64,000 nucleotides of DNA from an uncultured delta proteobacterium. Lineage in GTDB: Bacteria > Myxococcota > Myxococcia > Myxococcales > 40CM-4-68-19. Made by a program: the position numbers and the translations under genes. This document shows, piece after piece, positions 8,812 to 43,509 of the stretch (position 1 is its first letter; each line of letters begins with the position of its first letter). Where the stretch lies: positions 1 to 64,000 of the forward strand of contig CAIWCD010000025.1 of NCBI GenBank assembly GCA_903911145.1, given 5' to 3'. The notes under the pieces are model-generated. The model made no database searches, was not told where the DNA came from, and was given only the letters and a program-made list of their open reading frames with translations.

Positions 8812-10183
8812 AAGGGAAATGGCCGGTCTCGAAGAAGTCAGCGAAGTCATTTGCCGACGAGACGCGGCTGCTCACGGGTACGCGGAGGATCTCCTCCAGC
8901 GATTTGACATAGGAGCTGTGGGTATAGGCAACGCTGCTCGAATATCCGGCCTTCACGTGCGGACCGACGACGAGGAACGGAACCGTCGAATTGAGCGCGG
9001 GCTCGTCCCAGAGGACGAAGAGCACGCCGCCGTGCGCATTGATGAACGAGATGATGGCCGGCACGTTGTTCTGCAGCCAGGTGTCGCCGCCCGCGATGCA
9101 GGCATTGCCCGTCAGACCGAGCGCGCTCGAGCAACCGTTGGTGCAGGCCGAGTTGCCGTGCATATCGTTGCATAGGTTCGGAGTAATGAAGGTATATGCG
9201 GCGACGTCTCCCGACGCGAGGTCCGCCTGGAATCCTTGCGAGGTATAGGCGCGGTGATGCGCGGCGCAGTTGCTATTGGTCTTCGACGGAGGATTTCCCG
9301 ATACATCCTGGAAGAAGATGAATGGATCGTGCTTGGCCGCATAGAGCCCGCTGCTCACCACCGGGCAATCACCAGTATTGGTGCTGTCCATATCCTCCTG
9401 ATAGGAACGCCAGGTCTTTCCATTCGCGGCCGCGGCCAATAACGCGGCGATATGATCCGAATTGTTGGTGCTGTTGCTCGCCGACGGGTCGTTATCGCTG
9501 GTGAACTTGGTCGAGCCGAAGTCATTGGTCCCGGCCTCGAGCCAGACATAGTGCGGCTCACTGGGAATCGATCCGGTCAGGCAATCGGAATATGCCGAGG
9601 CGCTTCCATACTGGGCCTTGAGCGTACCGTTGATATAGGGCGCATTGGAATTTCCATAGACGCCTACGTTGGCGAAGTTCGTGGTGTCCTGGTTCTCCAT
9701 CGCGATGACGAATACATAGGGAATCGCGCTGCTCGCCGAGCCGCCACCAGAGCCACCGGCCGCGCCGCCACCAGAGCCGCCGGCCACTCCGCCACCGGCG
9801 CCGCCGGCCGTTCCGCCACCAGAGCCACCGGCCATTCCGCCACCGGAGCCGCCGGCCATTCCGCCACCAGAGCCACCGGCCATTCCGCCACCAGAGCCAC
9901 CGGCCACTCCGCCACCAGAGCCACCGGCCACTCCGCCACCAGAGCCGCCGCCAGCGCCGCCCCCGAATCCACCTGCTGAGCCGCCACCAGAGCCGCCGTC
10001 GACGGGAATGCTGCAGGTCTGGTGCTGGCACTGCTCGCCTTGCGGGCAGTCACTATTGAACTGGCAATAGCCCCCGACAATCGAGGTGCCGCTGCAGGCA
10101 ACTCCAGCGAGCGCCACGAGCGTAGCGGTGAAGAACGTCCGGAAGGAAATCGGTGCGGGAGCGAGGGATGCGGATGAGAGCAT
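8810..10183 (-). CDS. phosphoesterase-family lipoprotein with long Gly-rich repeat
   Basis: A 457-residue protein. Its signal sequence ends LAGVAC, a slightly atypical lipobox. A small Cys-rich segment (CQFNSDCPQGEQCQHQTC) and a long GGSGGGxA linker (about residues 60-148) follow. The catalytic domain belongs to the phosphoesterase family that includes phospholipase C and acid phosphatases. It starts VFVIAMENQD and has a late LFVLWDEP and VPFLVVGPHVK. The usual [10 protein letters not shown]-type first motif is here MENQDTTNFA. The likely location is the outer surface. Start 10183 is chosen because it places a short basic region before the hydrophobic core. Confidence 0.82.
   Translation of the reverse strand: MLSSASLAPAPISFRTFFTATLVALAGVACSGTSIVGGYCQFNSDCPQGEQCQHQTCSIPVDGGSGGGSAGGFGGGAGGGSGGGVAGGSGGGVAGGSGGGMAGGSGGGMAGGSGGGMAGGSGGGTAGGAGGGVAGGSGGGAAGGSGGGSASSAIPYVFVIAMENQDTTNFANVGVYGNSNAPYINGTLKAQYGSASAYSDCLTGSIPSEPHYVWLEAGTNDFGSTKFTSDNDPSASNSTNNSDHIAALLAAAANGKTWRSYQEDMDSTNTGDCPVVSSGLYAAKHDPFIFFQDVSGNPPSKTNSNCAAHHRAYTSQGFQADLASGDVAAYTFITPNLCNDMHGNSACTNGCSSALGLTGNACIAGGDTWLQNNVPAIISFINAHGGVLFVLWDEPALNSTVPFLVVGPHVKAGYSSSVAYTHSSYVKSLEEILRVPVSSRVSSANDFADFFETGHFP
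9741..10004 (-). repeat. minisatellite: 11 tandem 24-bp units encoding GGSGGGxA
   Basis: Eleven units of exactly 24 bp run without a break. The central units are almost identical and the two nearest 10004 are the most diverged. Each unit encodes eight residues, mostly Gly with one Ser and a variable Met, Val, Thr or Ala. Length changes stay in frame, so this is a candidate for strain-to-strain length variation of the lipoprotein stalk. Confidence 0.92.
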
Positions 10184-33364: not shown

Positions 33365-34177
33365 TCAGGTATCGAGCGGCACTGCGAGCGAAGGCCTGGG
33401 CCGTGCGATCTTGCGACGCGGATCATCGGCAGCGAGCGGAGCCACGGCCGTACCCAGCGCGGTGAACTCGACGACGGGCGGACTCGACCCCGACTGCTCG
33501 CCGTGCGCCGCTTCGCTCACCGTCATGCCGACGATCCCGGTCGGCGCATCTGCATTTCCCGGCGGCCAGTCGCGGAAGAGATCTTCCTGGAGCCGCTCCA
33601 TCGCCAGCTCGCGCGCGTCGAAGAAGGCCTGCGTGTAGCTCAAGATCTCCTCGTCCTTGCCGCGGTGATTGCGCAGCTCGCGCGGATCGAGACCGTAGAC
33701 GCAGTTGCCCATCGCCACCGTGATCGGGCGGTAACCCGACGCGAGCAGCGTGACGAAATCGGCGGCGGAGAGATCGCTGTCGAAGGGCGCGCCATTCGCC
33801 AAACGCAGACTGGGCGCGCTCCGCAAGCTCGCGGGCGCGTGCGACGAGTCGAACGAGATCGCCGTGCCGATGGCGATGCACTTCACCACCTGCCTCGCTC
33901 CACGCCAGAGGTGGTGCTCGATCTCGAGTCGCAGCTGCACGATTCCGTCGGCATGGAGAGCTTTGGCCTGCTCGCGCAGACGCGTCACCGCGATCTTCCG
34001 CGCCTCTCGCATCGCCGTGCTCAGCCGCGTGATCTCGCCCGTCTTCACCGCCCAGTCGTACTGCGTGCCTGCCGTATAGACGGCCGAGCCGACGCACAGC
34101 CCGCGCGGGAGAAATCCTGCGCGCGAGAGCGTGAGCAGCTCGGTCACCGACAGCTCGCTCAATGCCGGGACCATCAT
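33365..34177 (-). CDS. tandem YbjQ-like (heavy-metal-binding domain) protein 4
   Basis: A 270-residue protein of two YbjQ/UPF0145-like domains (about 10-110 and 130-245). Domain 1 has AGFLPRGLCVGSAVY and the helix AREIAVTRLREQAK-type sequence ending ADGIVQLRL. Domain 2 has SDLSAADFVTLLASGYRP, AMGNCVYGL, ARELAMERLQ and EFTALGTAVA. It is the last and most diverged of four consecutive paralogues. It overlaps the preceding gene by four bases (ATGA). YbjQ proteins are small oligomeric proteins of unknown function, annotated as metal-binding on weak grounds. No signal peptide or membrane helix is present. Confidence 0.8.
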   Translation of the reverse strand: MMVPALSELSVTELLTLSRAGFLPRGLCVGSAVYTAGTQYDWAVKTGEITRLSTAMREARKIAVTRLREQAKALHADGIVQLRLEIEHHLWRGARQVVKCIAIGTAISFDSSHAPASLRSAPSLRLANGAPFDSDLSAADFVTLLASGYRPITVAMGNCVYGLDPRELRNHRGKDEEILSYTQAFFDARELAMERLQEDLFRDWPPGNADAPTGIVGMTVSEAAHGEQSGSSPPVVEFTALGTAVAPLAADDPRRKIARPRPSLAVPLDT

Positions 34178-35271
34178 TCGCCACCCTCCCCGGCCGATGC
34201 GATCTGATCATTTGCAGAGAGGATGAGCGCGGCCCGTCCGAGCTCGCCCGGCGTCGACGGCACCACCGCCGTGCCGATCACGAACAGCTCGATCACCTCG
34301 CCCGTCTGCAGCGCGGCGTTGCCGACGTTCACCGGCGTGTTGCGCCACGAGTGCTGCTCCTCGGAGACGGTCACCCCGACGACACCGACCGCGCCGAGCG
34401 CTTCTGCCTCGTCCTGCAGTCGCTCGATCGCCAGCTCGCGCGCGTCGTAGAGCGCGTGCGTGTAGTGCGTCAGCTCCGCGCTTGCGCCCGGTGTGCTCTG
34501 CAGCAGAGTCGGCGGCACGTAGTAGACGCAGTTGCCCATCACGAATCCGACGGGGCGATAGCCGCTCTTGATGAGCAGCCAGAAATCCTGGCCGGAGAGA
34601 TCCGACTGGAACGGCTTGCCATGCTTGTTGCGGTAATGCTCGCCCTCGCGATGGCGAATGGCCGTGCCGACCGCGATGAACTCAGCGGTGTTCGCGCCGA
34701 GCGCGTAGCTCGCCTTCGACGTCGCCTGCTGCCACGGCGCTTGCGGCACCTGCGTCCAGCCGTTGCGCGCGGTCCACTGCTTCCACTGCGACGCCGCGAG
34801 CGTCTCCCATCCCTGAAACCATCCCGCGGGCTGCACGGTCGGCGGACGACGAAAGCCGATCTCGTCGGCCCACTTCTTCCAGACGCGATACTGCTGCCAC
34901 TGCGCGCGCTGCGGATCGAGCGCGAGGTTGACGGTGAGCCGCACGCCGATGACGCCGTCCGCGCCGAGCGCCTCCGCCTCCTCTTCCATGCGGTTCATCG
35001 CCAACGTGCGCGCGTGATTGAGCGCCTTCGTCGTCGTCTCGAGTTCGCCCGCGGATTGGTTCTTGAGCATCCCCGGTTGCTGCGGGGCGACATGATAAAT
35101 CGACGTGCCCATCACGAGGCCCACGGGCTCGAATCCGGCCTCGCGCACGAGCACGAACTCATTCACCGAGAGGTCGCTCGTAAAGAGCTTGCGCTCCCGC
35201 ATCTCGCTGAGGCGCGCGCGCGCCTGCCCTGGAAGATCCTCGGCCAGCACCGGCTGATCTTGCGTGCTCAT
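34174..35271 (-). CDS. tandem YbjQ-like protein 3 with Trp-rich insertion
   Basis: A 365-residue protein with two YbjQ-like domains. The first starts FTSDLSVNEFVLVREAGFEP and the second FQSDLSGQDFWLLIKSGYRP. The first domain is split by an insertion at about residues 120-190 that carries nine tryptophans (W125, 131, 134, 151, 155, 163, 166, 172, 180) in a polar background. This insertion is absent from the other three paralogues. The usual closing strands EFIAVGTAI and ELFVIGTAVV are present. Both gene ends overlap their neighbours by four bases (ATGA), so translation is coupled across the group. Confidence 0.82.
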   Translation of the reverse strand: MSTQDQPVLAEDLPGQARARLSEMRERKLFTSDLSVNEFVLVREAGFEPVGLVMGTSIYHVAPQQPGMLKNQSAGELETTTKALNHARTLAMNRMEEEAEALGADGVIGVRLTVNLALDPQRAQWQQYRVWKKWADEIGFRRPPTVQPAGWFQGWETLAASQWKQWTARNGWTQVPQAPWQQATSKASYALGANTAEFIAVGTAIRHREGEHYRNKHGKPFQSDLSGQDFWLLIKSGYRPVGFVMGNCVYYVPPTLLQSTPGASAELTHYTHALYDARELAIERLQDEAEALGAVGVVGVTVSEEQHSWRNTPVNVGNAALQTGEVIELFVIGTAVVPSTPGELGRAALILSANDQIASAGEGGE

Positions 35272-36293
35272 TCGCCGCCCTCGTCTGCCTCGAGCGCAGC
35301 CTCTTCGGCCTCCTCGGCGGCGATGCGCACTTCGTCCTCATCGTCGTCGTCGTCGATGAGCGCGGCCCGTCGATGTCCGAGCGGCATCATCGAAAGAATG
35401 AGCGGCGGCGTCGTGTGGTGATCGCGCTCGACACCGGGCACGCGGCGCACGCCAGTCGCGAGCCAGCTCACGTCGACATCGAGATCATCGAGAGGACAGC
35501 CGCCCGAGCCGCACGGCACCTCGCGCACCGAGATCTTCAGATCGCTTCCGACGACGAACTCGGCCTGCTGCTGCTGGGCCTGCTCGAGCAGACGATCGCG
35601 CGCGATGTTGCGCGCCTGCAGCACCGCATCGCTCGCCGCTTTGATCTCGAGCGGACCGGCGCCGATCGGCTTGCGAGAGCCGGAGCCGGGGCTCTCTCCC
35701 GTCACGTGCCAGACGTGGTAGCGGCAGAACTCGAAGAGGAAACCAGTCGGCTCGAAGCCGTCCTGCGCGAGCGCCCAGAGATCCTGCCCGGAGAGATCGG
35801 TGACGATCGGCGAGTTGGGCGGATGCGTGATCCACGGCGCGCGCACCGCGGTGCCGACTGCGGTGAACTCGAGGATCTCGCCCCCGTCGTCGCCGCCCTT
35901 GCCGCGGCTGCCCATCGTGATCATGCGATCGCGCAGATGCACGCCGACCACCGCGTCCGCGCCGACGAGCGCCGCCTCTTGAAACAGTCTCGAGATGGCC
36001 GCCTTTCTCGAGGCGCGGTGCGCGTCTCCGATGACTTTGATCTCGCCGGTCTTGCCCTTGTAGTCGGGGATCTGCCCGACGTGGAAAATGCTGCTGCCCA
36101 TCACCTGCGAAATCGGCTCGCACTGGGCCTGCCTGCAGAGAACGAACTCGCGCACCGAGAGGTCGCTCGTAAAGAGGCGGCGATGAACGCCCGTCTCATC
36201 ACCAAGCCGCTGCTCGGCACGCAGTGGCAATCCTCCCTCGGCGACGCGCTTGAGGCTCGCCTTCAGATCGATCGGCGGACGGTTCGAACTCAT
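35268..36293 (-). CDS. tandem YbjQ-like protein 2 with acidic tail
   Basis: A 341-residue protein. Domain 1 (about 38-150) reads FTSDLSVREFVLCRQAQCEP, MGSSIFHVG and EFTAVGTAV. Domain 2 (about 160-290) starts VTDLSGQDLWALAQDGFEP but diverges, with the Cys-containing CGSGGCPLDDLDVDV before its last strand. A C-terminal extension of about 40 residues is strongly acidic (IDDDDDEDEV then Glu/Ala-rich), unlike the paralogues. The start directly abuts the preceding TAG. The acidic tail might bind metal or a basic partner; this is inference. Confidence 0.8.
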   Translation of the reverse strand: MSSNRPPIDLKASLKRVAEGGLPLRAEQRLGDETGVHRRLFTSDLSVREFVLCRQAQCEPISQVMGSSIFHVGQIPDYKGKTGEIKVIGDAHRASRKAAISRLFQEAALVGADAVVGVHLRDRMITMGSRGKGGDDGGEILEFTAVGTAVRAPWITHPPNSPIVTDLSGQDLWALAQDGFEPTGFLFEFCRYHVWHVTGESPGSGSRKPIGAGPLEIKAASDAVLQARNIARDRLLEQAQQQQAEFVVGSDLKISVREVPCGSGGCPLDDLDVDVSWLATGVRRVPGVERDHHTTPPLILSMMPLGHRRAALIDDDDDEDEVRIAAEEAEEAALEADEGGE

Positions 36294-37109
36294 CTAGTCG
36301 CCCACCGACAGGACGAGGTGCGGCTTGGCGATGTGATGGTCCTCGCGGATCGCAATGACGGCCGTGCCGACGGCGCTGAACTCGAGGACGCTGGGACCCC
36401 AGGTGTGGTTGTTCTCGTCGACGAAGACTCCGACGATTCCGGCGGCGCCGAGCGCTTCCGCTTCAGCCTGCATGCGCTCCATCGCCAGCTCGCGCGCGTC
36501 GTAGAACGCCTGCGTCGGACCCGTGAGCTCGCCGTTTTCCGGAGGGCGCACGTCAGCGCGACCGACGTTGTAGACGCAGTTGCCCATCACGAATCCGAGC
36601 GGTCGATATCCCGCAGAGAGCAGCGTCCAGAAATCCTGCCCGGAGAGATCGCTGGTGAACGGCTTTCCGTCAGCGCCACGAAACGAGGTACCGGGAGCGC
36701 CGCGCACGGCCGTGCCGATCGCGACGAACTCGATGACGTTCGCGCCCCACGCGTGCACGTTGAGCGTGAGCCGCACCGCGACGATTCCGTCTGCACCCAG
36801 CTCGTCGGCCTCGGCCTCCATGCGCTCCATCGCCAGCTCGCGCGCGCTGTACATCGCCTGCGTGAGTGTTGTGATCTCTCCACTCGCGGCGTTGTTGTCG
36901 AGCTGCGCGCCGATGTGAAAAATGCTGCTGCCCATCACGAGACCGAGCGGCTCGAAGCCCGCCTCCTTGACGAGCAGAAACTCGTTCACCGAGAGGTCGC
37001 TGGTGAAGAAGCGATGCTCCCGCATCTCCGCGAGGCGCTCGCGCGCGTGCTTCGGAAGCGAAGCGGACTGCACGCGCGACTGGGCCGACTGATCGTTCGG
37101 AGAGGTCAT
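36294..37109 (-). CDS. tandem YbjQ-like protein 1 (most canonical copy)
   Basis: A 271-residue protein of two similar domains. Domain 1 (about 33-135) has FTSDLSVNEFLLVKEAGFEP, LVMGSSIFHIG, ARELAMERMEAEADELGADG and EFVAIGTAV. Domain 2 (about 145-260) has FTSDLSGQDFWTLLSAGYRP, FVMGNCVYNVG and the same helix and strand motifs. The only cysteine common to the second domains of three of the paralogues is in GNCVY, so the label heavy-metal-binding is weakly supported. It is cytoplasmic by sequence. The gene starts 2 nt after the zinc-ribbon gene's stop. Confidence 0.84.
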   Translation of the reverse strand: MTSPNDQSAQSRVQSASLPKHARERLAEMREHRFFTSDLSVNEFLLVKEAGFEPLGLVMGSSIFHIGAQLDNNAASGEITTLTQAMYSARELAMERMEAEADELGADGIVAVRLTLNVHAWGANVIEFVAIGTAVRGAPGTSFRGADGKPFTSDLSGQDFWTLLSAGYRPLGFVMGNCVYNVGRADVRPPENGELTGPTQAFYDARELAMERMQAEAEALGAAGIVGVFVDENNHTWGPSVLEFSAVGTAVIAIREDHHIAKPHLVLSVGD

Positions 37110-41170: not shown

Positions 41171-42292
41171 ATGTCGCTATCGCGCGATTGTCCGCCCATG
41201 CGGCGGTTGTTCCTCTTCCTGGTTGCGCTCCTGTCGCTCCCCTACGCGGCTCGTGCTCTGGACTTCGATGCGAAGCTCGAGCCCGGCGTTGCCATTCCCC
41301 TCGGAGCACCACAGTCCGATCGCTTTAACGTCGGCGGCGCTGCGACATTAAAGGGCCTGGTTGGTTTCGAAGGCGGATATGTCGATATCGCAGCGGGATT
41401 AACCTATCTCGGCCTTCCCGCCGCGACTGGCTACACGCTCACCAGCGCAGGAACCGCCTGGGCGCCCAGTCTTGGCCTTCGCCTCCAGCGCCCGCGCCGG
41501 TCCGAGGAGCAGCTTCGCGCCCAACCGCCTGGGCATGAATGGTTCTATGGAGCGCGCCCGTGGCTGGACGCGGATATCATGTATGTGCGAACGGGCAGCC
41601 TCGATCGAGCCGGCTTTGCCGCCGCCACGGGCCTCTCATTTCCACTCGACGACGGCCAGGCGTTCTGGTTGGGTCCCTTCGTCCGCTATTTCCAGATCCT
41701 CCAGCAGAACCACGCTGGACTCGATGAGCGCGACGCAAAGGCAATCATTGTTGGATTAAGCTTGGAAGTCGGCACGCGGCTCGTGCGTCCGACGAATACA
41801 CCCGCTGCAGCAGCGCCGGAGCCCGTTCAGGTCAAGGAGTGCCCCGCTGTCGTCGCGCAGGCCGCCCTGCCTCAGCAGATTGTGCGTCCGGACCGCGATG
41901 GGGACGGAGTTCCCGATGAATTCGACGCCTGCCCCGATGTCGCAGGCCCGGTTACAAACGGCGGTTGCCCAGTCTACGAGAGGCTCATCGTCAAGCCTGG
42001 GGTTCAGGAAGGCCGCGCGAGCTGCGTGACAACCTTCGTCCAGGTCTCAGGAAGCACGGCGCTCTTGGGAATCAATCGTGAGAGTGGCGCGACGCCATCT
42101 GCACGCTGCACGCCGCGCTCGAGTTGCTCCAGGTCGACATACTCATCTCCCTCAGCAAGACGACTGCCGGCCTCAGACATGCTGACCCGCGCCACTTCGT
42201 CGTCTGAGAGAAGATTCAGAATCCCATCGCGCGCGACCAGAGCGTCACGAGTCGCCTTCGCCGCACAGGTTGGCGCGTGGACCATCACATGA
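41171..42292 (+). CDS. OmpA-like protein lacking its OmpA domain (3' truncated)
   Basis: An N-terminal signal (MRRLFLFLVALLSLPYAARA from an internal Met at 41198) is followed by a barrel-like domain (about residues 30-215). A thrombospondin type 3-like calcium motif DRDGDGVPDEFDACPDV and then CPVYERLIVKP come next. In this protein class the peptidoglycan-binding OmpA domain always follows YxxLIVKP. Here the frame instead runs into sequence antisense to the next gene from about base 42000, giving about 95 Ser/Arg-rich residues with no domain. The OmpA module has therefore been deleted, probably together with intergenic sequence. The true start may be 41171 or 41198. Confidence 0.72.
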   Translation: MSLSRDCPPMRRLFLFLVALLSLPYAARALDFDAKLEPGVAIPLGAPQSDRFNVGGAATLKGLVGFEGGYVDIAAGLTYLGLPAATGYTLTSAGTAWAPSLGLRLQRPRRSEEQLRAQPPGHEWFYGARPWLDADIMYVRTGSLDRAGFAAATGLSFPLDDGQAFWLGPFVRYFQILQQNHAGLDERDAKAIIVGLSLEVGTRLVRPTNTPAAAAPEPVQVKECPAVVAQAALPQQIVRPDRDGDGVPDEFDACPDVAGPVTNGGCPVYERLIVKPGVQEGRASCVTTFVQVSGSTALLGINRESGATPSARCTPRSSCSRSTYSSPSARRLPASDMLTRATSSSERRFRIPSRATRASRVAFAAQVGAWTIT

Positions 42293-42792
42293 GAAGCGGT
42301 GCTGCTCCCAAGCAGCGCGCGGGCGCGCCCGACCATCTCTGAGTCACCGCTGGCGAGGACGATGAACTTCCCCGCCTTCACGTCGAGGACGTACTTCATG
42401 ACTGCGTCCTCGGGTACACCGACGCTCAGCAGAGCCGCGCCCAGTGCGCCCACGACGCCGCCAACGGCCGCCCCCTCCAGCGCGCCGAGCAACCAGCCCA
42501 CGAGAGGGCCCATCGCCACCAGCGGTCCGACGCCCGGCACAAAGAGGAATGCGCCGCCGAAGAGGAGGCCCCAGAGAGAGCCCCAGAACACCCCGCGCCC
42601 GCCCCAGACCTTGATGCGATCGCCAGAGGTATAGAAGCCGAGCGCGTGCTCCTCTGTGTGGAAGTCCTTCCCGATGATCGACAGCTGTTTCATGTCGATC
42701 CCGGCTTTCTGCAGCGACTTGATCGCGCCCTCTGCACCAGAGTGGGTTTCAAACGTAGCGACGACGGACTGCTCCTGCATTCCTGCGGTCAT
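42004..42792 (-). CDS. DUF1269/GS17M-like stress membrane protein
   Basis: A 262-residue protein. Residues 1-60 (VVATFETHSGAEGAIKSLQKAG, LSIIGKDFHTEEHALGFY) resemble the GS17M/YflT-type general stress domain. A central Gly-rich hydrophobic hairpin (WGSLWGLLFGGAFLFVPGVGPL to VVGALGAALLSVGVP) is typical of DUF1269-like proteins that may associate with membranes. The C-terminal 80 residues are polar and unassigned. The ATG at 42792 has AAGGAG 5 nt upstream, in register with an 11-bp repeat array. Its 3' end is convergent with, and overlapped by, the truncated OmpA-like frame. Confidence 0.8.
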   Translation of the reverse strand: MTAGMQEQSVVATFETHSGAEGAIKSLQKAGIDMKQLSIIGKDFHTEEHALGFYTSGDRIKVWGGRGVFWGSLWGLLFGGAFLFVPGVGPLVAMGPLVGWLLGALEGAAVGGVVGALGAALLSVGVPEDAVMKYVLDVKAGKFIVLASGDSEMVGRARALLGSSTASHVMVHAPTCAAKATRDALVARDGILNLLSDDEVARVSMSEAGSRLAEGDEYVDLEQLERGVQRADGVAPLSRLIPKSAVLPETWTKVVTQLARPS

Positions 42793-42803
42793 GACGACTC
42801 CTT

Positions 42804-42858
42804 GAGATGGCTCTGAGACAGGTCTGAGACTGGCCTGAGATGGGTCTGAGGACTGACT
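42804..42858 (-). repeat. five tandem 11-bp repeats in the leader of the DUF1269-like gene
   Basis: On the gene's strand the units read AGTCAGTCCTC, AGACCCATCTC, AGGCCAGTCTC, AGACCTGTCTC and AGAGCCATCTC, with consensus AGRCCNRTCTC. The next 11 bases, AAGGAGTCGTC, hold the ribosome site and touch the ATG in the same register. An 11-bp period is close to one helical turn, so one face of the DNA could bind a protein repeatedly. Alternatively the transcript may carry repeated UC-rich elements. Confidence 0.88.
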
Positions 42859-42993
42859 GTCGTTCAGGCAGTACAAGCGGCGTGCCATCGCCAGCCAGAG
42901 AGCAGCGGCCCAGTTCTCGCAGAGACGTACTCCACGCATGTTGGTGTCCGCGACCTGGAACGGCCGCGCGCAGCCAGCATTCAGAGAGCCACC

Positions 42994-43509
42994 ATGAATC
43001 GCTCCACTACGCTTTCACTCTTGCTGCTCTGCACCGTGTTCACCCTGCGCGCGACAGCAGCTGAGGATCGGCATGAAGGACACGCAGGGCCCGCGCCGCA
43101 GGCCGAACACCATGGCGCTCCACAGGCTGTCCCGCACCAGTCGCAGCGCCAGGGCCCGCCGCACTTTCAGGCCCACCCTCCGGGCGTCCATCCCCACGGC
43201 CCGATGGTGCGCCAGCACAACGTCCGCGTGCTCGCTCCCCGGAATATCGCGCGGGGGCACCGCGAGTGGGCGCACTGGGAGCACCCCGACTTTGCGCGGC
43301 CTTCCTATTTCTGGGCGTGGGGAAGTTTCCAGAGCGTCAGCTGCATCGCCGAGGATTCCTATGGTGATCAGTACCCGGTGACGGAGAGCGCGGGTGTGAA
43401 CTTCGGTCTGATGGACATGACTGCGACTGAGGATGATGCGATGGATCGCTGCTATGCAGAGTCAGGCGAAGATGCGAGCTGCTATCTGGCCACCTGTTCG
43501 CATTTCTAG
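42994..43509 (+). CDS. secreted His/Pro-rich protein
   Basis: A 171-residue protein with a signal peptide (MNRSTTLSLLLLCTVFTLRATA). Its mature N-terminal half is His/Pro/Gln-rich (HEGHAGPAPQAEHHGAPQ, HPPGVHPHGP). The C-terminal half is structured, with four cysteines and motifs SYFWAWGSFQSVSCIAEDSYGDQYPVTE and DRCYAESGEDASCYLATC. The His-rich half may bind metal ions. No family is recognised. It is followed 12 nt later by a barrel protein gene, and the two are probably co-transcribed. Confidence 0.7.
   Translation: MNRSTTLSLLLLCTVFTLRATAAEDRHEGHAGPAPQAEHHGAPQAVPHQSQRQGPPHFQAHPPGVHPHGPMVRQHNVRVLAPRNIARGHREWAHWEHPDFARPSYFWAWGSFQSVSCIAEDSYGDQYPVTESAGVNFGLMDMTATEDDAMDRCYAESGEDASCYLATCSHF

Follow-up and report, generated by a model that had tools for sequence, protein, structure and literature searches.

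Non-coding short tandem repeats of the minisatellite type exist in the leaders of bacterial genes. Direct repeats with an 11-nucleotide (nt) step are described for operators of the OmpR/PhoB family of response regulators, where the portion of PMC4415409 drawn on here defines the PHO box as direct repeats of 11 nt, seven positions of each being conserved and four variable. For mycobacterial PhoP, the extract used of PMC4832192 reports that three and four motifs in a row were bound more tightly than two. Tandem half-sites are also typical of the activators of sigma-54 promoters, which according to excerpts of PMC9765219 and PMC7910581 occupy sites 80-150 bp upstream of the promoter; the Nla28 half-site is given there as CT(C/G)CG(C/G)AG and the sigma-54 consensus is printed as TGGCACG-N4-TTGC(T/A).

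The array studied here lies in a 64,000-nt stretch of DNA (the window), just before a gene of the stress type, and can be set beside each of these systems. It shares with minisatellite-like leader repeats the few imperfect, head-to-tail, non-coding copies, the restriction to one locus and the absence from homologues, and differs from them in being too short in copies and too diverged to show recent slippage. With the PHO box and other OmpR/PhoB operators, as far as the cited portions of PMC4415409 and PMC4832192 describe them, it shares the 11-nt direct repeat and the split of the unit into seven conserved and four variable positions; it differs in a unit sequence other than CTGTCAT, in its probable placement inside a leader, and in that searches of the genome and of the scanned window genes turned up, respectively, no regulon and no regulator. 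Like the myxobacterial sigma-54 promoters with Nla28 tandem half-sites in the excerpted accounts, it is accompanied by an element resembling TGGCACG-N4-TTGY, which lies upstream of the array; in those accounts, by contrast, the repeats are not downstream of the promoter, the unit is the Nla28 half-site, and -12 carries GC rather than GT. The repeats read on the minus strand, a strand that the initial annotation did not give, and the features of the locus are as follows.

42872..42887, minus strand: sigma-54-like element TGGCACG-CCGC-TTGTA, TGGCACGCCGCTTGTA (motif match, rpoN present; putative promoter)
42793..42861, minus strand: predicted untranslated leader of 69 nt, if the sigma-54-like element is used (putative start site)
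42848..42858, minus strand: degenerate flanking stretch AGTCAGTCCTC, earlier counted as a fifth unit (sequence read)
42804..42847, minus strand: array of four imperfect 11-bp direct repeats, AGRCCNRTCTC (sequence read and statistics)
42847-42837, minus strand: unit AGACCCATCTC, 0 mismatches to AGRCCNRTCTC
42836-42826, minus strand: unit AGGCCAGTCTC, 0 mismatches
42825-42815, minus strand: unit AGACCTGTCTC, 0 mismatches
42814-42804, minus strand: unit AGAGCCATCTC, 1 mismatch
42793..42803, minus strand: 11-base step AAGGAGTCGTC with Shine-Dalgarno AAGGAG, abutting the ATG (sequence read)
42004..42792, minus strand: gene for a 262-aa protein with an N-terminal YflT domain, a glycine-rich hydrophobic middle and a C-terminal domain (PF11181 and homologues)

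The repeats that the initial annotation had pointed out are real, but their number is four and not five, since the stretch at 42858-42848 mismatches 4 of the 10 specified consensus positions and matches only 6. Its reading of the junction with the gene was accurate: the array ends exactly one 11-base step ahead of the ATG at 42792, and that step is taken by the ribosome-binding site stretch with its AAGGAG. Seven columns are invariant across the four units, including six contiguous ones that spell TCTCAG across the unit boundary, and substitutions among units are not significantly concentrated in a part of the unit (P = 0.14).

A chance origin of the array is unlikely, though not overwhelmingly so when the whole window is considered. 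Allowing up to two mismatches, the pattern CTCAGN6CTCAGN6CTCAG has 5 matches in the window (4 of them the array) against 0.49 expected. With 25 of 33 step matches, the array is surpassed among the window's four-copy arrays of period 7-24 by a single one, whose period is 24 bp and which lies at about 9.7-10.0 kb. Of 60 dinucleotide shuffles, one or more scored higher (maximum 8.96 against 8.06); simulation produced equally good arrays in 5 of 400 sequences of 64 kb and in none of 5000 sequences of 200 bp. The 24-bp tandem array (9741-9998) has some 10.8 copies and apparently lies inside a coding region.

Three simple accounts of the repeats were rejected. They are not a coding repeat, even though no stop interrupts the frame upstream as far as an ATG at 42939: 11 is no multiple of 3, homologues align from 42792, AAGGAG precedes that position, and a codon-based gene caller independently picked it. 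Nothing points to a mobile element: the 121-bp region has no match in plasmids or phages, and the three-unit pattern is absent from viral contigs. Nor does a known RNA family turn up, there being no Rfam match in 42400-43200.

We favor the reading that the array is a locally arisen, decaying tandem repeat in the leader, without demonstrable function, and assign it a probability of roughly 0.5. The repeat would have been born by local duplication in the untranslated leader of the YflT-domain stress gene, and its units would now be diverging. A sigma-54-type promoter some 80 bases ahead of the ATG probably drives transcription, so that the repeats would be transcribed; having no specific binding partner, they would be at most passive, a start-codon-free spacer ahead of an ordinary Shine-Dalgarno. 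Two observations count against this reading, namely that the array sits exactly between the predicted start site and the Shine-Dalgarno, the usual place of a control element, and that its step of 11 with TCTCAG kept at each step resembles an OmpR/PhoB-type site. As found, the array matters little: it is a single-locus repeat without conserved relatives or regulon.

The gene after the repeats had been described as a stress gene, and the domain search agrees, since residues 10-77 match YflT (PF11181) with 27.1 bits against a Pfam gathering cut-off of 26.2; the 262-aa protein had no NCBIfam match. Counting the window's own genome, 11 of 142 genomes searched in the order have a full or partial homologue with E up to 1e-10, and 5 of 195 in the phylum have one with E up to 1e-30; the genome from the same genus and the remaining genomes of the family yielded none. 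The array is absent upstream of the four closest homologues from other genomes (E up to 1e-30, 195 phylum genomes), where the best 11-bp score within 400 nt is 14-17 of 33 against 25 of 33 here. Note that these homologues are merely 42-60% identical, so their lack of repeats tells little about conservation within the species; the comparison includes no close orthologue and speaks to distant relatives, which is its main limit. A search of the 11 further family genomes gave no match to the divergent gene at 42994. Plasmids also carry relatives of the YflT part (47-53% identity where they match), whose neighbors include phosphoketolase, glgX, Clp ATPase and oleate hydratase genes. The C-terminal domain, which matches no family model at the thresholds used (Pfam, NCBIfam), recurs as separate small proteins in L022, L027, L030, L031 and L014. 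Elsewhere in the window (33368-37109, minus strand), three YbjQ-type (PF01906) proteins are encoded near one another.

The main rival to a passive local repeat is an operator: an OmpR/PhoB-family response regulator would occupy the 11-bp direct repeats as at least two dimers arranged head to tail. From its place downstream of the sigma-54-like element, such an operator would bring about repression of the stress gene, or else could switch on the divergent gene at 42994. The initial annotation had proposed a multi-site operator, and its geometry is right for this family, with seven invariant columns, including the TCTCAG block, that fit the 11-nt pattern of seven conserved and four variable positions in the cited part of PMC4415409. 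Several results weigh against it. The array unit differs from the E. coli PHO motif CTGTCAT, the homologues carry no copy, no sigma-70-type promoter occurs within 42700-43100, and no OmpR-type DNA-binding domain was found among the window genes scanned, which are part of the predicted genes. Furthermore, the 5.3-Mb genome has the three-unit array at this one place, and two-unit sites with up to two mismatches number 25 (4 of them the array) against 28 for the reversed control, which shows no excess. There is thus no support for a regulon with AGRCCNRTCTC arrays before other genes, for which the initial annotation had recommended a search, while the non-enrichment is compatible with a regulator dedicated to a single gene. 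We consider the operator unlikely, if still a serious contender. If it exists, it would represent an uncommon layout, in which response-regulator sites follow a sigma-54-type promoter, and would offer a handle on stress-gene control in a little-studied lineage.

CTCAG-type three-unit matches, with different units, occur in 7 other genomes among 145 of the order, and reversed-pattern controls give a similar rate. At 5 of the 8 places with such matches a long open reading frame (ORF) ends inside the array; this is no functional evidence, because the array's TGA triplets fall in all three frames. In other genomes of the order we also noticed 11-bp TGAG-type repeats at gene ends, with stops in three frames (L005, L006, L007, L008 and L009); any long ORF entering an array of this kind must stop there.

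Sigma-54 control of the YflT gene is likely but unproven. TGGCACGCCGCTTGTA departs from TGGCACG-N4-TTGC(T/A) at one position, the C of the conserved GC, which becomes GT; the signature GG-N10-GC at -24/-12 is consequently absent from it, and we call it sigma-54-like only. The genome (G000) encodes RpoN (PF04552, 209.4 bits), and sites with at most one mismatch to the unwidened consensus lie at -150 to -20 of 2 of 386 sampled predicted genes, the YflT gene included. Across the genome, however, a scan with at most one mismatch to TGGCACGNNNNTTGYW gave 51 matches against 68 for the reversed control, so that the motif scan by itself is unspecific; since TGGCACGNNNNTTGYW is the consensus with C widened to Y after sight of 42887-42872, the uniqueness of its exact match carries little weight. 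Among the homologues, L019 and L016 have sigma-54-like sites with one and two mismatches, respectively, both at workable distances, L018 has one with two mismatches merely 28 nt from the ATG, and L017 has none within 100 nt; the chance of a site with up to two mismatches in 100 nt is about 0.006-0.012 per homologue. A sigma-54 start site usually lies about 12 nt from its element, which would place the start near 42861. If the element is real, the whole array would therefore fall inside a 69-nt leader, a stretch that contains no ATG, GTG or TTG. Given such a promoter, the operator could be imagined as a dedicated one within the leader, at which a cooperatively bound OmpR/PhoB-type regulator blocks polymerase and so joins two-component and sigma-54 control of one stress gene; we regard this elaboration as quite improbable.

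The same placement would suit an RNA element, in which an RNA-binding protein or small RNA binds the repeated CU-containing motifs of the leader and controls translation. The repeats would stand in the leader beside the Shine-Dalgarno, and the leader is weakly structured, being less structured than its shuffles (z +1.41). A second gene in the genome has a comparable layout: at L101 (G000:C3:67011) two TCTCAG copies abut the Shine-Dalgarno and ATG of an apparent lipoprotein gene, but 14 apart, not 11. The UC-rich elements controlling translation that the initial annotation had offered as an alternative nevertheless gain no positive support. Besides the missing Rfam match, the Shine-Dalgarno is ordinarily exposed (0.42 against a mean of 0.40, with 121 of 300 shuffled leaders at least as open), and the 80 nt preceding 386 predicted genes show no enrichment of TCTCAG (6 copies where 5.3 are expected, 3 of the 6 being the array). 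An RNA element of this kind is improbable.

TCTCAG-rich repeats arise at several places in the genome without a fixed step. Clusters of TCTCAG/CTGAGA occur at C16:49872, C48:60255, C48:214678, C3:67011 and elsewhere, with spacings of 9, 11, 13 and 14, and their positions relative to genes vary. Steps of this kind would be expected if the repeats are local and follow no set protein register; they disfavor a register of 11, which weakens the earlier equation of the period with a helical turn. A further candidate makes the array one member of a family of TCTCAG/CTGAGA half-sites scattered over the genome, most often in the form of the palindrome CTGAGATCTCAG; the family would mark, in several layouts, where a DNA-binding protein binds. 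Exact copies of the palindrome number 9, where an order-3 Markov model of 464 kb predicts 0.19, and there are 30 direct pairs of TCTCAG lying within 28 bases, compared with 13 pairs of the reversed control; that control, which holds CTAG when palindromic (0.013 expected), is biased low. On the other side, sampled intergenic DNA contains the single hexamer TCTCAG no more often than expected (23 observed, 23.0 expected), layouts and gene-relative positions differ, and the window array has no palindromic copy, all of which leaves membership in such a family rather doubtful, a shade more so than the RNA element. The CTGAGATCTCAG copies stand at C3:78995, C14:23454, C16:49872, C18:24336, C20:43598, C20:50007, C48:60285, C48:60298 and C49:116454; by predicted genes 6 of the 9 are intergenic, and two of these, as read from the translations, lie between rplA and rplJ.
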